From contig NZ_BBPQ01000013.1 of NCBI RefSeq assembly GCF_000787855.1, positions 65,520 to 105,693 on the forward strand: 40,174 bases of DNA, given 5' to 3'. This DNA comes from Streptacidiphilus anmyonensis (GTDB lineage Bacteria > Actinomycetota > Actinomycetes > Streptomycetales > Streptomycetaceae). Within the stretch, counting starts at the first letter, position 1. Every line of letters starts with the position of its first letter. The position numbers and the translations under genes are program-made. Positions 4,201 through 19,308 of the stretch are shown here, piece by piece. Below the pieces are notes generated by a model that worked only from the letters and a program-made list of their open reading frames with translations, ran no database searches and was not told the DNA's origin.

Positions 4201-5459
4201 GTCGCGTCGTAGAAGCGCGGTACGAGCATCCCGACCGTGGACTTGCCGGAGCCCGAGGCGCCGACGAGGGCGACCGTCTCACCGGCCCGCACGCTGAGGT
4301 TCAGCCCGCGCAGCACCGGTTCGGGCGAGGAGGCGTAGGCGAAGTCGACGTCCTCGAAGGAGACGGCGGGCACGCCGTCGAGCTCCGCGAACTCGTCCAG
4401 CTCCTCCGGATCGAGGTCGATCGCGGAGTCGCGCTCCTTGATCACCGGTCGCTCGTCGATCAGCTGCAGGACGCGCTCCACGCTGGCGCGCGCCTGCTGG
4501 CCGACCGTGAGCAGCATGGTGAGCATCCGGACCGGGCCGGTCATCTGCGCGACGTAGGTGGAGAAGGCGACGAAGGTACCGAGCGTCACCTGGCCGCGCA
4601 CGGCCAGCCAGCCGCCCAGGGCCAGCACCGCGACCTGGGCCAGGGCGGGGATGGCCTGCATCGCCGGGCTGTAGCGGGCGCTGAGCCGCACGCCGCGCAG
4701 GCGCCTGGCGTAGAGGCGCCGGCTGGCGGACTCGAGACGGCCCAGCTCCTGCTCCTCCTGGCCGAAGCCCTTGACGACGCGGACGCCGGAGACCGCCCCG
4801 TCCACGACGCCGGCCACCCGGCCGGCCTCCTGCTGGGCGGACCAGGTCGCGGGGAAGAGCCGCCTGCGGCTGAGCGACGCGAAGTACCACAGGGCCGGGG
4901 CCATGGCCAGCGCGATCAGGGTCAGCAGCGGCGACAGGAAGAACATCACCACGATGGAGAGCAGGAACATCAGCACGTTGCCGGTCATCATCGGCAGCAT
5001 GCTGAGCAACCCGACGATCATCTGCAGGTCCGAGGTGGCCCGGCCGACGACCTGCCCGGTGTCGAGTCCGTCCTGCTTGACGCCGTCGAGCCGGGTCAGT
5101 GAGTCGAACAGGTCCTGGCGCATGTCGTGCTGGACGTCCATGGCCAGGCGTCCACCCCAGTAGCGGCGGACCATGGTGAGCAGGAAGACCGCGACCGCGG
5201 CGGCGACCAGCGCGATCGCCCAGGGGGCGAGCGAGCTGCGGTGGGTGGTGATGACGTCGTCGATGATGTGGCGCGGGATCAGCGGCACGAGGGCGCTGAT
5301 CGCCATGCCGAGCAGCGAGGCGCCGAACGACAGCAGGACGTTGGTGCGGTAGCGCCAGGCATACCCGCTCAGCCGACGCACCCAACCGGACCGGCGCTCG
5401 GTGTCCGGACCGGTGGAGGGGGCTTCGACTTCCCCTGGAGACTTATGAGCCTGAGACAT
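1272..5459 (-). CDS. fused two-half ABC exporter (TMD-NBD-TMD-NBD)
   Basis: A 1395-residue membrane transporter with two complete ABC exporter halves in one chain. Half 1 has membrane helices at about 30-310 and an ATPase with Walker A GASGSGKST (about 398), signature LSGGQ (about 501) and Walker B ending LLLDDATSAVD (about 527). Half 2 has helices at about 795-1080, Walker A GETGAGKST (about 1177), signature LSAGQ (about 1281) and LLLLDEATAALD (about 1305). NBD1 carries Asp where the catalytic Glu is expected. NBD2 carries the altered signature LSAGQ. Both defects fall in the same composite ATP site, as in heterodimeric exporters of the TM287/288 and BmrCD type. The linker (about 590-790) has an acidic stretch, a pentad repeat and a Gly/His/Met-rich patch. 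ATG 5459 has no ribosome binding site and sits directly after a good promoter, so the transcript is probably leaderless. The substrate cannot be told; drug or lipid export is the family norm. Confidence 0.92.
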   Translation of the reverse strand: MSQAHKSPGEVEAPSTGPDTERRSGWVRRLSGYAWRYRTNVLLSFGASLLGMAISALVPLIPRHIIDDVITTHRSSLAPWAIALVAAAVAVFLLTMVRRYWGGRLAMDVQHDMRQDLFDSLTRLDGVKQDGLDTGQVVGRATSDLQMIVGLLSMLPMMTGNVLMFLLSIVVMFFLSPLLTLIALAMAPALWYFASLSRRRLFPATWSAQQEAGRVAGVVDGAVSGVRVVKGFGQEEQELGRLESASRRLYARRLRGVRLSARYSPAMQAIPALAQVAVLALGGWLAVRGQVTLGTFVAFSTYVAQMTGPVRMLTMLLTVGQQARASVERVLQLIDERPVIKERDSAIDLDPEELDEFAELDGVPAVSFEDVDFAYASSPEPVLRGLNLSVRAGETVALVGASGSGKSTVGMLVPRFYDATSGTVRVHGHDVRDLTMRSLRAAIGMVPEDSFLFSESVRTNIAYGRPDATDEDVVAAARAAQADGFIRELPDGYDTVVGEQGLTLSGGQRQRVALARAILADPHILLLDDATSAVDAQVEAEIHDALRTVMAGRTTLLVAHRRSTLQLADRIGVLDQGRLVDLGTHEELDARCPLYRSLLTDPDAMAADIRQADPAAQILTDSLLAAELADDELTDVRPADAVLMEAEAAAAIELDAEERDTAGLDGSPIGAAQIDAAPIGAVQLDGARIDGARIDGARRHGLEAVDGAQVAVRVGGVTPELWDRERYPEPDPDAPVTANRPGAGGGHMGGPGGVHAAMGAMAATPDLLAKVAALPPADETPAIALDEARRPDPAFNVRRMLAPFRGPLLLALLLVTLDALASLVLPILIRRGIDDGVSKGAAGAVGLVSLIALAVVLVDWGVQTAETQVSGRTGERVLYGLRVKIFAHLQRLGLDYYERELGGRIMTRMTTDVDALTSFLQTGVVTAVVSLLTFAGIFVVLLVLDAGLALYVFAVLPILIVATLVFRAKSSKIYQLGREKVSTVNADLQENVAGMRIVQAFRREDHNRARFAERSDDYRRTRVRAQLYISLYFPFVQMLSSVAAALVLIVGANRVNAGTLTTGALVAYLLYIDLFFSPVQQLSQVFDGYQQAAVGLSRIRELLRTPTSTPQAAQPEAVGRLTGDIHFDDVRFAYNALGADATLADPTAPASGRTPARKPEAITGVELRIPAGQTVALVGETGAGKSTLVKLLARFYDVTGGAVRVDGRDVRELDLAGFRHRLGVVPQEAYLFAGTIRDAIAYGRPDASDAEVEAAARAVGAHEMIARLDGGYLYRVSERGRNLSAGQRQLIALARAELVDPDLLLLDEATAALDLATEAAVNRAADRLTRHGGKRRTTVVIAHRLSTAARADRVVVMDHGRVVEDGTHADLLAADGAYARLWRAFVGEEQTAKVG

Positions 5460-5497
5460 ATTTAGCGATACTAATCTTCTCGTCGGTCAGCTGTCCA
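5459..5497 (-). promoter_or_regulatory. vegetative-type leaderless promoter of the ABC exporter with embedded inverted repeat
   Basis: Reading on the minus strand: -35 TGGACA (5497-5492, 5 of 6 to TTGACA), 18-bp spacer, -10 TAGTAT (5473-5468), then 8 nt to the ATG at 5459. Transcription should begin at or within a base or two of the start codon. An inverted repeat TTAG-N5-CTAA (5462-5474) overlaps the -10 and is a possible repressor site. The motifs are seen directly; activity is inferred. Confidence 0.6.
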
Positions 5498-5531
5498 TGT
5501 CGCTTTAGGGGCTTACCCGCCCCGGCTCGAA

Positions 5532-15810: not shown

Positions 15811-16335
15811 CCGTTCACCATAGAGCCTGACGCCCCCTGACCGGGTGGCCGAGACCGTATCCCAAGGCCTCCCAACTCCCCTCACTGGGAGCGATGGCGC
15901 CTCCGACCCGATCCGGCCGGCGTGAAGTTCGTGAGGTCGCGCGGACCGGCTCAAGGTGGAGTGCGGGAGGAAATGTGCGCGGTCCGTGCGCCCCCTGCGC
16001 TCCAGGACGCCTCTTTTCGGTCAACTTCAGGACACATGGTCGTGGTTGGCCATATGCCCAGCCCAGGCCCTTCCGCCGGGTTTCCGCGCACTCGTCAACT
16101 GCGTTGGAACCGCGCCACAACTGGCCACAGCGCGACATGCCCCCTTCCCTGACGGGGTGATGGGTGCCACGCTTCGAGATCGAATGCTTCACGCCAAATT
16201 GCCATGTCGACATAGCGTCTGATGGTGAACTAGTCGCAACAGCCCTACCCGAGCCAGTAGATTCGATCTTGATGGGAGCATGCGAGAGGCGGGGGGCTCG
16301 ACAGGCGCCATCCCAGGACGGGTGCGGACGGCACC
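15811..16335. promoter_or_regulatory. long regulatory region upstream of adpA
   Basis: 525 bases with no supported gene and lower GC than the surroundings, as expected for the complex adpA promoter. Seen: palindrome ATGTCGACAT (16204-16213); palindrome TTCGAGATCGAA (16173-16184); and, on the minus strand at 16196-16187, TGGCGTGAAG, which matches the published AdpA consensus TGGCSNGWWY at 9 of 10 positions. AdpA autoregulates in several Streptomyces, so this is a candidate site. I could not settle a -35/-10 pair. Confidence 0.5.
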
Positions 16336-17823
16336 GTGGAACCACAGGACCGGGACGACCATGACAGCGAGGGGGGCCGGAGCGCCTTGAGCAGGGTCAG
16401 CAGGACTACCGTCACCGGGGACGAGGCGATCGCCGGCGTCCCGGTCGGCGCCACCGGTTCCGGCAGCCTCGCCAGTGGATCAACCGGCCTCGCCACCGCC
16501 GCACCCCGCAAACTCTCGAGCCGCCGCCGCGCCGAGATCGTGGCCGTGCTGCTCTTCAGCGGCGGCCCGATCTTCGAGAGCTCGATCCCGCTCTCCGTCT
16601 TCGGCATCGACCGCCAGGACACCGGGCTCCCGCACTACCGCCTGCTTGTCTGCGCGGGCGAGAACGGCCCGCTGGCCACGACCGGCGGCCTCACCATGAC
16701 GGCGCCCTACGGCCTCGACGGCCTCGCCCGGGCCGGCACCATCGTCGTCCCGGCCTGGCGCTCCGCGGGCCAGACCCCGCCGGCCGAGGCGCTCGCGGCG
16801 CTCCGCAAGGCCCACGCCGAGGGTGCGCGGATCATCGGCCTGTGCACCGGCGCCTTCGTCCTCGCCGCCGCCGGCCTGCTGGACGGACGCCCCGCGACCA
16901 CCCACTGGATGTACGCGCCGACCCTGGCCAAGCGTTACCCGCAGATCCAGGTGGACCCGCGCGAGCTCTTCATCGACGAGGGCGACGTGCTGACCAGCGC
17001 CGGCACGGCCGCAGGCATCGACCTGTGCCTCCACGTGGTCCGCACCGACCACGGCGCCGAGGCGGCTGCCGCCCTCGCCCGCCGACTCGTCGTGCCAGTC
17101 CGCCGCTCGGGCGGACAGGCCCCCTACGTCGACCGGTCTTTACCTGAGGAGATCGGCAACGACCCGCTCGCCGAGGTCGTCACCTGGGCCCTCGACAACC
17201 TCTCCAAGCAGTTCGACGTGGAGGTGCTGGCGGCCCGCGCGTACATGAGCCGTCGCACCTTCGACCGGCGCTTCCGTTCGCTGACCGGCAGTGCGCCGCT
17301 GCAGTGGTTGATCTCGCAGCGCGTCCTGCAGGCGCAGCGGCTGCTCGAGACCACGGAACTTTCCGTGGACGAGGTGGCGCGGCGCTGCGGCTTCCGCTCG
17401 CCGGTGGCCCTGCGCGGCCACTTCCGGCGGCAGCTGGGCGTCTCCCCCGCCGTCTACCGCAGCACGTTCCGGGCGCGCCGCCCCGAACCCGGCACACCGG
17501 GCGGGAACGGCGGCGCGGGCGGGCCTGCGGGTGGGACGACGACGGGCACCGGAACGTCCATGTCGACTCCGAGTGCGGCGACGCCGGGCGGCGGGGAGCA
17601 GTTCGGCGCCTCGCTGCCCACCGTTCCGCCCCAGGGCGGCCCCGGACGCGGCCGGCCGACCCCGCGCGTGGGCAGTCGCACCCGGCAGGCAGGCCCGAGC
17701 CGCCCGGCGTCGGCCGACCACTCCTCTCCCACGGAGGACGGCCGCCCGGGCCCCGCTCAGGCCCTCAGCCACCCCGACAGCGCCACCGCCGCCCTGCGCC
17801 GCCGCGGCGCGGAACGCCGGTAG
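16336..17823 (+). CDS. adpA: AdpA, pleiotropic AraC-family regulator of development and secondary metabolism
   Basis: A 495-residue transcription factor; in Streptomyces it controls hundreds of genes for morphogenesis and antibiotics. The ThiJ/PfpI/DJ-1 (GATase-1) dimerisation domain is at about 62-235, with EIVAVLLFSGGPIFESSIPL and IIGLCTGAFVLAAAG. The AraC/XylS double helix-turn-helix is at about 280-375, including AARAYMSRRTFDRRFRSLTG and VDEVARRCGFRSPVALRGHF. The single TTA codon (17140-17142, Leu269 in SLPEEIG) sits in the inter-domain linker exactly where known adpA genes carry it, so translation should depend on bldA tRNA. The N terminus before KLSSRRR is about 57 residues against roughly 15 in S. 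coelicolor, so the true start may be later; TTG 16387 is one candidate. A Gly/Pro/Ser-rich tail of about 115 residues follows the DNA-binding domain. orn follows, as in other Streptomyces. Confidence 0.95.
   Translation: MEPQDRDDHDSEGGRSALSRVSRTTVTGDEAIAGVPVGATGSGSLASGSTGLATAAPRKLSSRRRAEIVAVLLFSGGPIFESSIPLSVFGIDRQDTGLPHYRLLVCAGENGPLATTGGLTMTAPYGLDGLARAGTIVVPAWRSAGQTPPAEALAALRKAHAEGARIIGLCTGAFVLAAAGLLDGRPATTHWMYAPTLAKRYPQIQVDPRELFIDEGDVLTSAGTAAGIDLCLHVVRTDHGAEAAAALARRLVVPVRRSGGQAPYVDRSLPEEIGNDPLAEVVTWALDNLSKQFDVEVLAARAYMSRRTFDRRFRSLTGSAPLQWLISQRVLQAQRLLETTELSVDEVARRCGFRSPVALRGHFRRQLGVSPAVYRSTFRARRPEPGTPGGNGGAGGPAGGTTTGTGTSMSTPSAATPGGGEQFGASLPTVPPQGGPGRGRPTPRVGSRTRQAGPSRPASADHSSPTEDGRPGPAQALSHPDSATAALRRRGAERR
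17140..17142 (+). other. TTA leucine codon (bldA control point) in adpA
   Basis: In-frame TTA at codon 269 between the two adpA domains. Control of adpA through this codon is established in Streptomyces coelicolor and S. griseus. Confidence 0.9.
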
Positions 17824-17909
17824 CCGGCGCGGAACGGAACGGGAGGGGCGGGACGGAGCCGGCCACCGTGGGACGAGCCTGGCCGAGCCGACGCGGCCCC
17901 GGCCGGGCG

Positions 17910-18265
17910 GCGGCATGCGGCCGACCGCACAAGCACTGGCCCGCGCCTCGATGACCGCGAGCGGTCCACCCCGAGGCCTCCCGACCTGACCCGGGACCGG
18001 CCGACGCGGAACGGACGGGCCGGGGAGGGTCGGGCTGCAGCATGCGGCCGACGCCACAAGCCCCCGCCTCGAAGACCGCAGCCTAACCACCCCGCGGCGA
18101 GCCGACCTGGCCGGGACTGGCCGACGCGGAACGGACGGGCCGCGGAGGGCCCGGCCTGGCCCAGACGGGCCTTGAGGAGGGCCGGGCCGCAGCATGCCAC
18201 CGACGCCACAAGCACCCGCCGCGCCTCGACGGCAGCGAGCTGACCACCTCCGGTCGGCCGAGGGA
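17910..18265. repeat. degenerate tandem repeats between adpA and orn
   Basis: The stretch 17824-18705 has no supported gene. It holds diverged head-to-tail units of about 120-150 bp. The marker GCAGCATGCGGCCGACGCC, with changes, starts at 17910, 18037 and 18189. The 23-base word beginning GGCCGACGCGGAACGG occurs at 17999-18021 and 18119-18141, with a weaker copy near 17822. The frames open across it on the minus strand are repetitive, Arg/Pro/Ala-rich and lack family resemblance, so I do not call a gene. Further short repeats (CATGTGTCCC) occur around 18348-18370. Origin unknown. Confidence 0.6.
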
Positions 18266-18705
18266 GCGCGAGCCCAGCACTCTCGCCCCGCGCCCCGCGC
18301 CCGGCGCGCCGCACGCCCCACCCCGCGAACCCGGCCGCCGGCCGGTCATGTGTCCCTGCTGCCATGTGTCCCGCTCGGCCGCCGCCCGGGGAGGCGCTCC
18401 GCGCAAGCGCCTTCGCAGCGATCCATCCGGCGTGCCGGAGCGCGCCCGAGCGGGATTCCTCCGCCGCGCGCCACCCCGCGCGCCGCTTCACGCATCCCCC
18501 GCATGTCCCTGCGCGTGTCCCTGCGCGCGTCCTCCCGTGCGTCACAGCCGCCCTCCGCACACGGACCGGGCGACGTGTCGACTTGCCAGGGCGAAGCGCA
18601 ATGATCGACCATGACGGGTCAGCCGATCGCCCGCCCGGGTTCGTCGCGGAGCTCGCGGTTGACGTCGACAGCAGGACGCGCACAAGCCCCGGGACGGTGA
18701 GCCGG

Positions 18706-19308
18706 ATGAACGACCGCATGGTGTGGATCGACTGCGAGATGACGGGACTCGACCTCGAACGAGATGCCCTGGTGGAGGTCGCCGCCCTGGTGACCGACTC
18801 CGAGCTGAACATTCTGGGCGAGGGTGTCGACATCGTGGTCCGTCCGCCGGAGGCGGCGCTCGAACAGATGCCGGACGTGGTGCGGGAGATGCACACCGCG
18901 TCGGGGCTGCTGGAGGAGCTGGCCGGGGGCGTGACCCTCGCGGAGGCGGAGGCCCAGGTGCTGGCGTACGTCCGGGCCCACGTGGCGGAGGCCGGCAAGG
19001 CGCCGCTGTGCGGGAACTCCGTGGCGACCGACCGCGGCTTCCTCTCGCGGGACATGCCCGCGTTGGAGGGGCACCTCCACTACCGGATCGTCGACGTGTC
19101 GTCGATCAAGGAGCTCGCCCGCCGCTGGTACCCGCGCGCCTACTACAACAGCCCCAAGAAGCAGGGCAACCACCGCGCGCTCGCGGACATCCGGGAGAGC
19201 ATCGCCGAGTTGAAGTACTACCGCGAGGCCGTCTTCGTGCCCCAGCCTGGCCCGGACACCGAGGCCGCGCGGGCCATCGCCGCACGCTACGAGCAGCCGC
19301 CGGCCTGA
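18706..19308 (+). CDS. orn: oligoribonuclease
   Basis: A 200-residue DEDDh 3'-to-5' exoribonuclease that degrades di- to pentaribonucleotides, including the pGpG product of c-di-GMP breakdown. It has [22 protein letters not shown] (Exo I, Asp and Glu), [18 protein letters not shown] (Exo II Asp), [18 protein letters not shown] and [20 protein letters not shown] (Exo III His and Asp). Length matches the family. ATG 18706 gives the normal N terminus; a GTG three codons earlier is possible. It lies downstream of adpA as in S. coelicolor, where ornA is needed for normal growth and development. A strong hairpin follows 11 nt after the stop. Confidence 0.96.

Follow-up and report, generated by a model that had tools for sequence, protein, structure and literature searches.

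The closest described counterparts of the repeat in the adpA-orn spacer of Streptacidiphilus anmyonensis are bacterial intergenic VNTRs and locus-specific tandem duplications, with which it shares head-to-tail, non-coding, gene-free copies that are lineage-specific and confined to one place. It departs from the VNTR class in that its copies are old, imperfect (words 69-91% alike) and only about three in number. MIRU, likewise tandem intergenic units of similar-order length in a high-GC actinobacterium, are spread over many genomic loci, whereas the S. anmyonensis unit is present at one locus only. The stop-proximal hairpins of other Streptacidiphilus species resemble the array in position, between the adpA stop codon and a conserved element ahead of orn, and GC-rich hairpins are present in both, but in 8 of 13 relatives a hairpin that stands out from shuffles lies within 100 nt of adpA whereas the strongest in the array are ~155-365 nt downstream and do not outperform shuffled sequences. 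Among the literature matches listed, no paper concerned this repeat. In published reports, adpA and ornA are co-transcribed in Streptomyces griseus (PMC10126417, PMC2936110), and published work disagrees on adpA-orn coupling in Streptomyces coelicolor, which has a 341-bp spacer, with one group describing no coupling and another a read-through RNA (PMC2936110, PMC10126417). Three classes of transcript ends are described for Streptomyces clavuligerus (PMC8269248).

The window analyzed is a 40,174-nt stretch of the genome (9.39 Mb, 153 contigs) of S. anmyonensis, an acid-loving relative of Streptomyces, and coordinates are positions within it. On the + strand, adpA (16336..17823; Pfam HTH_18, HTH_AraC and DJ-1_PfpI) encodes an AraC-family developmental regulator with a DJ-1/PfpI domain and ends with TAG; the start codon, taken from the ORF list, is putative. 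There is a single TTA codon in adpA, at 17140-17142, such a codon being expected in a bldA-dependent gene. Downstream on the same strand, orn (18706..19308; Pfam RNase_T) encodes an oligoribonuclease. The adpA-orn spacer ranges from 138 to 882 nt among 14 genomes of the genus, with S. anmyonensis having the longest, although a broken orn frame makes the length unreliable for one genome (G013). orn itself was matched in all 14 genomes, in G013 as broken pieces (C4:5384717-5385311) that give three matches in different frames with a stop codon inside one; this genome is listed as 76% complete and so sequencing error is the likely cause.

A direct-repeat search of 17500-19000 identified three sets of repeated words in the spacer. 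A 48-nt marker word is present at 17897-17944, 18024-18071 and 18176-18223, with spacings of 127 and 152; a 30-nt word begins at 17941, 18062 and 18219, with spacings of 121 and 157; and two copies of a 45-nt word, 91% identical, are located 120 apart at 17991-18035 and 18111-18155. These are pieces of one unit, with their order kept. An initial inspection of the DNA alone, hereafter the sequence-only reading, had reported a marker spaced by 127 and 152 bp and a second, 23-bp word spaced by 120 bp, and both are borne out, with marker copies at 17897, 18024 and 18176 and the 23-bp word, which is the core of the 45-nt word, exact at both places, in units 1 and 2. GCAGCATGCNNCCGACGCCACAAGC is exact in units 2 and 3 and has 3 mismatches in unit 1. 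Overall, copies of the array words are 69-91% alike, and the copies share words of 19-25 bases that carry the palindrome GCATGC.

The repeat is thus made up of approximately three diverged head-to-tail copies of a ~120-150 bp unit, spanning 17897-18260, none of which is assigned a strand. Unit 1 (17897..18023) was delimited by the direct-repeat search and BLAST. Unit 2 (18024..18175) is longer, apparently through a minor duplication, within the unit, of a GGAGGGCC-type word. Unit 3 (18176..18260), delimited by BLAST and MAFFT alignment, is truncated. Lack of similarity on formal alignment had been named as grounds for abandoning the repeat; the units do align, with 78.5% identity over 135 columns for units 1 and 2 (E 1e-27) and 80% over 70 columns for units 1 and 3 when the spacer was compared with itself by BLAST, the latter value being 71% over 70 columns in the MAFFT alignment. 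Off-diagonal self-alignment of 17824-18568 gave a best score of 115, with a mean of 31.4 and a maximum of 43 for 100 dinucleotide shuffles, and 127 other overlapping stretches of the window scored at most 59. The direct adjacent copies therefore exceed chance, as expected for a local tandem duplication. Only some 365 of the 882 spacer bases belong to the array, so that the repeat block of ~880 bases described by the sequence-only reading is real as a repeat, but limited to ~17897-18260, perhaps from 17823. The rest of the spacer (18291..18567, no strand assigned) lies outside the array, its likeness to the array being reached by 189 of 200 shuffles. A word (17823..17857, no strand assigned) whose first base is the final one of the adpA stop codon resembles the end-of-unit word at 18000-18033, with an alignment score of 36 that was matched in 2 of 500 cases when the array was shuffled and in 14 of 500 when the query was and, from this modest evidence, a fourth, partial copy may start at the adpA stop codon.

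To place the array against a background, we used 878 overlapping one-kb chunks drawn from the window and from 400 kb of a single contig of its genome. Some local direct repeat is present, at E <= 1e-3, in 118 of them, and six, from four places, score above the 111 bits of the array. The stronger repeats correspond to a tRNA-Met gene pair, an ORF of 926 aa with an internal repeat, a repeat next to an assembly gap and an open stretch rich in Gly and Pro. As a local repeat, the array is therefore not exceptional. None of the four places is clearly an intergenic array, and so the array is uncommon in that respect, though less unusual than the sequence-only reading had held. The repeat is ordinary, and the observation itself is real and well supported.

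The array is the only site of the unit detected by DNA search of the S. anmyonensis genome, with matches elsewhere having, under a laxer limit, E values of 0.0097 or worse. Allowing up to 3 mismatches, the marker pattern occurs at 3 genome sites, all within the array (reversed control, 0), and the 23-mer at its 2 array sites plus one site elsewhere with 2 mismatches (reversed control, 1). The genome-wide search for the unit, which the sequence-only reading had proposed, thus returned the array only, and the repeat family suggested there, whether of the REP/BIME, MITE or MIRU type, is rejected given a single locus in its own genome. A CRISPR array is ruled out by words that are 69-91% alike, uneven spacing and similarity that continues between the words. 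In the genus, a direct self-repeat at E <= 0.01 was detected in one of the 14 adpA-orn spacers, and BLAST found no DNA similar to the S. anmyonensis spacer, outside the element that precedes orn, in the adpA-orn spacers of the 13 congeners. Searching the congeners with the whole block returned, in addition to the element that precedes orn (6 of 13 congeners), nine matches of ~23-70 nt located elsewhere (E 1.6e-7 to 9.7e-4), taken to be GC-rich chance. At the family level, 13 of 394 genomes, including that of S. anmyonensis, had a match at E <= 1e-5; the other 12 have stretches of ~35-79 nt that are 79-92% identical to differing parts of the block, and the whole unit was not found in this sample, in which two candidates per genome were scored. 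A mobile, phage or plasmid origin was dropped, as 17824-18560 had no match at E <= 1e-5 in either the phage or the plasmid collection.

Repeats do occur between the AdpA core and orn in other genomes. Ten of 78 adpA-orn loci from named genomes have a direct repeat in this region at E <= 1e-3, located wholly within the coding tail in 8, across the tail and spacer in 2 and wholly within the spacer in none, although no more than 13 of these loci have a spacer that reaches 150 nt. In S. melanogenes, the adpA tail has a 67-nt, 97% direct repeat (5376-5442 and 5463-5529 of locus L048) flanking a run of 20 N, and this repeat was dropped as support for a duplication hotspot because the N run between the copies makes an assembly artefact possible.

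The region immediately upstream of orn is conserved (18568..18705, + strand), with TCGACTTGC, ATGATCGACCATG and GGACGGTGA in this order before the start codon. Against the corresponding sequences of the four nearest congeners, identity is 86.7-95.7% across 135-155 columns. BLAST from S. anmyonensis matched it in 6 of the 13 congeners, and the remaining 7 have short words in common with it in the 14-genome alignment. In that alignment, all 14 genomes have a TTGACTTG-like word followed by ATGATCGA(C/T)(C/T)(A/C)TG, as well as GGACGGTGA shortly upstream of the orn start codon. By eye, the element would contain the orn promoter, leader and ribosome-binding site; a consensus scan that included the element gave no sigma-70-type site, and the promoter and leader assignment therefore stays inferred. 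As far as sequence comparison indicates, this ~135-bp element is the recognizably shared non-coding adpA-orn DNA in Streptacidiphilus, which provides a clean boundary within the spacer. Part of the element, CATGACGGGTCAGC-CGATCGCCC, resembles Streptantibioticus DNA that encodes the AdpA C-terminus (CATGCCAGGTCAGCGGGATCGCCC), with a score higher than any of 200 shuffles at 3 of the 10 loci compared but not at the other 7.

The block is probably an old, local and species-specific tandem duplication in the non-coding adpA-orn spacer, without a dedicated function. The duplication would have arisen by slippage, or by recombination between short homologous GC-rich words, in DNA of very high G+C content, and the sequence at the adpA stop codon may have been its seed. 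The array would be transcribed within the adpA 3′-end and within any adpA-orn read-through RNA, presumably under no detectable selection on its sequence and with no dedicated role beyond spacing. In support, the unit has a single locus, spacer length varies from 138 to 882 nt and similarity to the sister species ends at the adpA stop; for four close relatives, it breaks within about 10 bases on either side of the stop codon. The spacer is probably fast-evolving, unconstrained and transcribed. Counting against a neutral duplication are the words kept between copies, namely the 23-mer that is exact in units 1 and 2, and GCAGCATGCNNCCGACGCCACAAGC, together with two stem-loops, selected post hoc, whose stability is high relative to their composition (z -3.99 and -3.57).

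Divergence between the copies is consistent with drift. Aligned sites differ by 18% between units 1 and 2, and by 29% both between units 1 and 3 and between units 2 and 3. In the adpA core, divergence at four-fold sites is of a similar order, 22% and 24% relative to the two nearest species, and rises to 33% and 35% for the following two. Should the copies drift as synonymous sites do, the duplication would be about as old as the split from the nearest sister species, age and rate being inseparable in these data. All three copies agree at 40 of 65 columns, and these columns are not clustered (longest run, p 0.37; number of runs, p 0.27) so that no protected motif shows, although a run test on only 65 columns has little power. 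A strong and clear repeat beside a master developmental regulator can, we caution, be a private, drifting duplication.

The main rival, which we consider unlikely, is that the array forms the transcription-termination or 3′-UTR region of adpA, with hairpins at the unit ends (17980-18034 and 18148-18188) replacing the stop-proximal hairpin of the relatives and the number of hairpins tuning read-through into orn. Such a role would fit the co-transcription or read-through of adpA and orn reported for Streptomyces griseus and Streptomyces coelicolor, and disputed for the latter (PMC2936110, PMC10126417). In the first 100 nt past adpA, 8 of the 13 congeners have an outstanding hairpin, with no more than 3 of 100 shuffles doing as well, whereas that of S. 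anmyonensis was matched by 27 of 100, and so something in the array could replace it. The two stem-loops, with z scores of -3.99 and -3.57, are the candidates, picked post hoc from six stretches folded singly, of which the other four gave z scores of -0.33 to -1.51. When the search itself was controlled, in scans with sliding windows of 40, 60 and 80 nt, however, the best + strand hairpin in the array was reached by 11, 29 and 22 of 100 shuffles, respectively, and the best - strand hairpin by 90, 78 and 99. Unit 2 has not retained the stem of unit 1 and folds in a different register (z -1.44), and there is no terminator-like hairpin with a T run in 17600-18800. A control over the whole spacer also weakens the argument from the relatives. 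In this, 9 of the 13 congeners stand out, being equalled by no more than 1 of 30 shuffles, but the four nearest (G005-G008), with 4, 4, 9 and 19 of 30, are as unremarkable as S. anmyonensis, with 9 of 30, and the loss of a hairpin may therefore not be special to S. anmyonensis.

As a whole, the array folds no better than shuffled sequences on either strand (z 0.10 for + and 0.33 for -), which was the outcome of the RNA-folding check suggested with the sequence-only reading. The structured adpA 3′-UTR offered there is therefore compatible by position only. Because the array fails to beat shuffles, no function is favored over a weak termination role. An extension, that the units are an evolved attenuator with adjustable copy number, in which multiplied hairpins replace the usual one, set how much adpA transcription reaches orn and so tune development in this one species, is in our estimate scarcely probable. 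If true, expansion of the spacer would be a simple route by which a species could retune adpA-orn coupling.

It is very unlikely, in our judgment, that the block is the decayed remnant of a longer ancestral adpA 3′-coding tail, ended by the present TAG. The idea has a basis in the relatives. Among the loci that cover orn, those labelled Kitasatospora (4 of 5) and Streptantibioticus (4 of 4) have an AdpA frame that continues up to 4-5 nt short of orn, as does one strain labelled Streptacidiphilus (ASG 303), and the tails in these loci measure 93-304 codons. In S. anmyonensis, 139 open codons follow the TAG in the adpA frame, but an open run of this length has a probability of about 0.29 at the local base composition. 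In the adpA core, the G+C fractions at codon positions one to three are 0.73/0.54/0.94, and in the adpA tail they are 0.75/0.81/0.88; this codon-phase bias vanishes at the TAG, and no steady bias was found from there through the block. Compared with 24 AdpA tails, translated frames of the block matched no better than shuffles, and 14 of 100 shuffles did as well as the best DNA match. Of the word spacings, 127, 152, 121 and 157 are not divisible by three; only the fifth, 120, is. Five overlapping ORFs and the extension before orn had no Pfam match above cut-off, a match to RunxI, at E 0.07, being below its cut-off. The block does not look coding. A decayed gene, as the sequence-only reading had proposed, is thus not supported, given the absent codon-phase signal, a match to AdpA tails at shuffle level, no Pfam match and no congener counterpart. 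A conserved gene, the discovery of which intact in relatives had been held to overturn the repeat, is rejected, with the array unmatched in the spacers of 13 congeners and the tested ORFs without a Pfam match.

That the array gives rise to a small regulatory RNA, or offers a DNA-binding protein several sites near adpA or orn, is less likely still: the common 19-25 base words with the palindrome GCATGC and a weak 16-base likeness of one unit to the orn leader point this way, but there are no promoter- or terminator-like sites in 17600-18800, the only Rfam match at gathering scores in the window is a tRNA (tRNA-His), the AdpA consensus site has no exact occurrence in 15901-18800, the conserved columns are unclustered and the array was not found in the adpA-orn spacer of sister species. 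The likeness to the orn leader was reached by 56 of 500 shuffles, and a fragment of that leader inside the array was rejected for this reason.

Across the 78 loci from named genomes, the AdpA frame stops 4-5 nt before orn in 23, and 9-10 nt before orn in 9 more. The 23 are labelled Kitasatospora, Streptantibioticus and Streptomyces, with one Streptacidiphilus and one MAG, and one locus (L062) holds N. In these loci, the AdpA tails extend 70-304 codons past the core. Five of the 8 tails translated end with RDR(P/A)VG, and a TAGGGT-like word just upstream of orn overlaps the last codons of the tail in most of the printed cases. In the S. anmyonensis spacer, beyond the array, TGTCCC occurs four times in the region 18351-18521 (18351, 18367, 18504 and 18516), with 12 occurrences on the + strand of the whole window, and the last two of the four are within a 12-bp tandem pair, CGCATGTCCCTG/CGCGTGTCCCTG.
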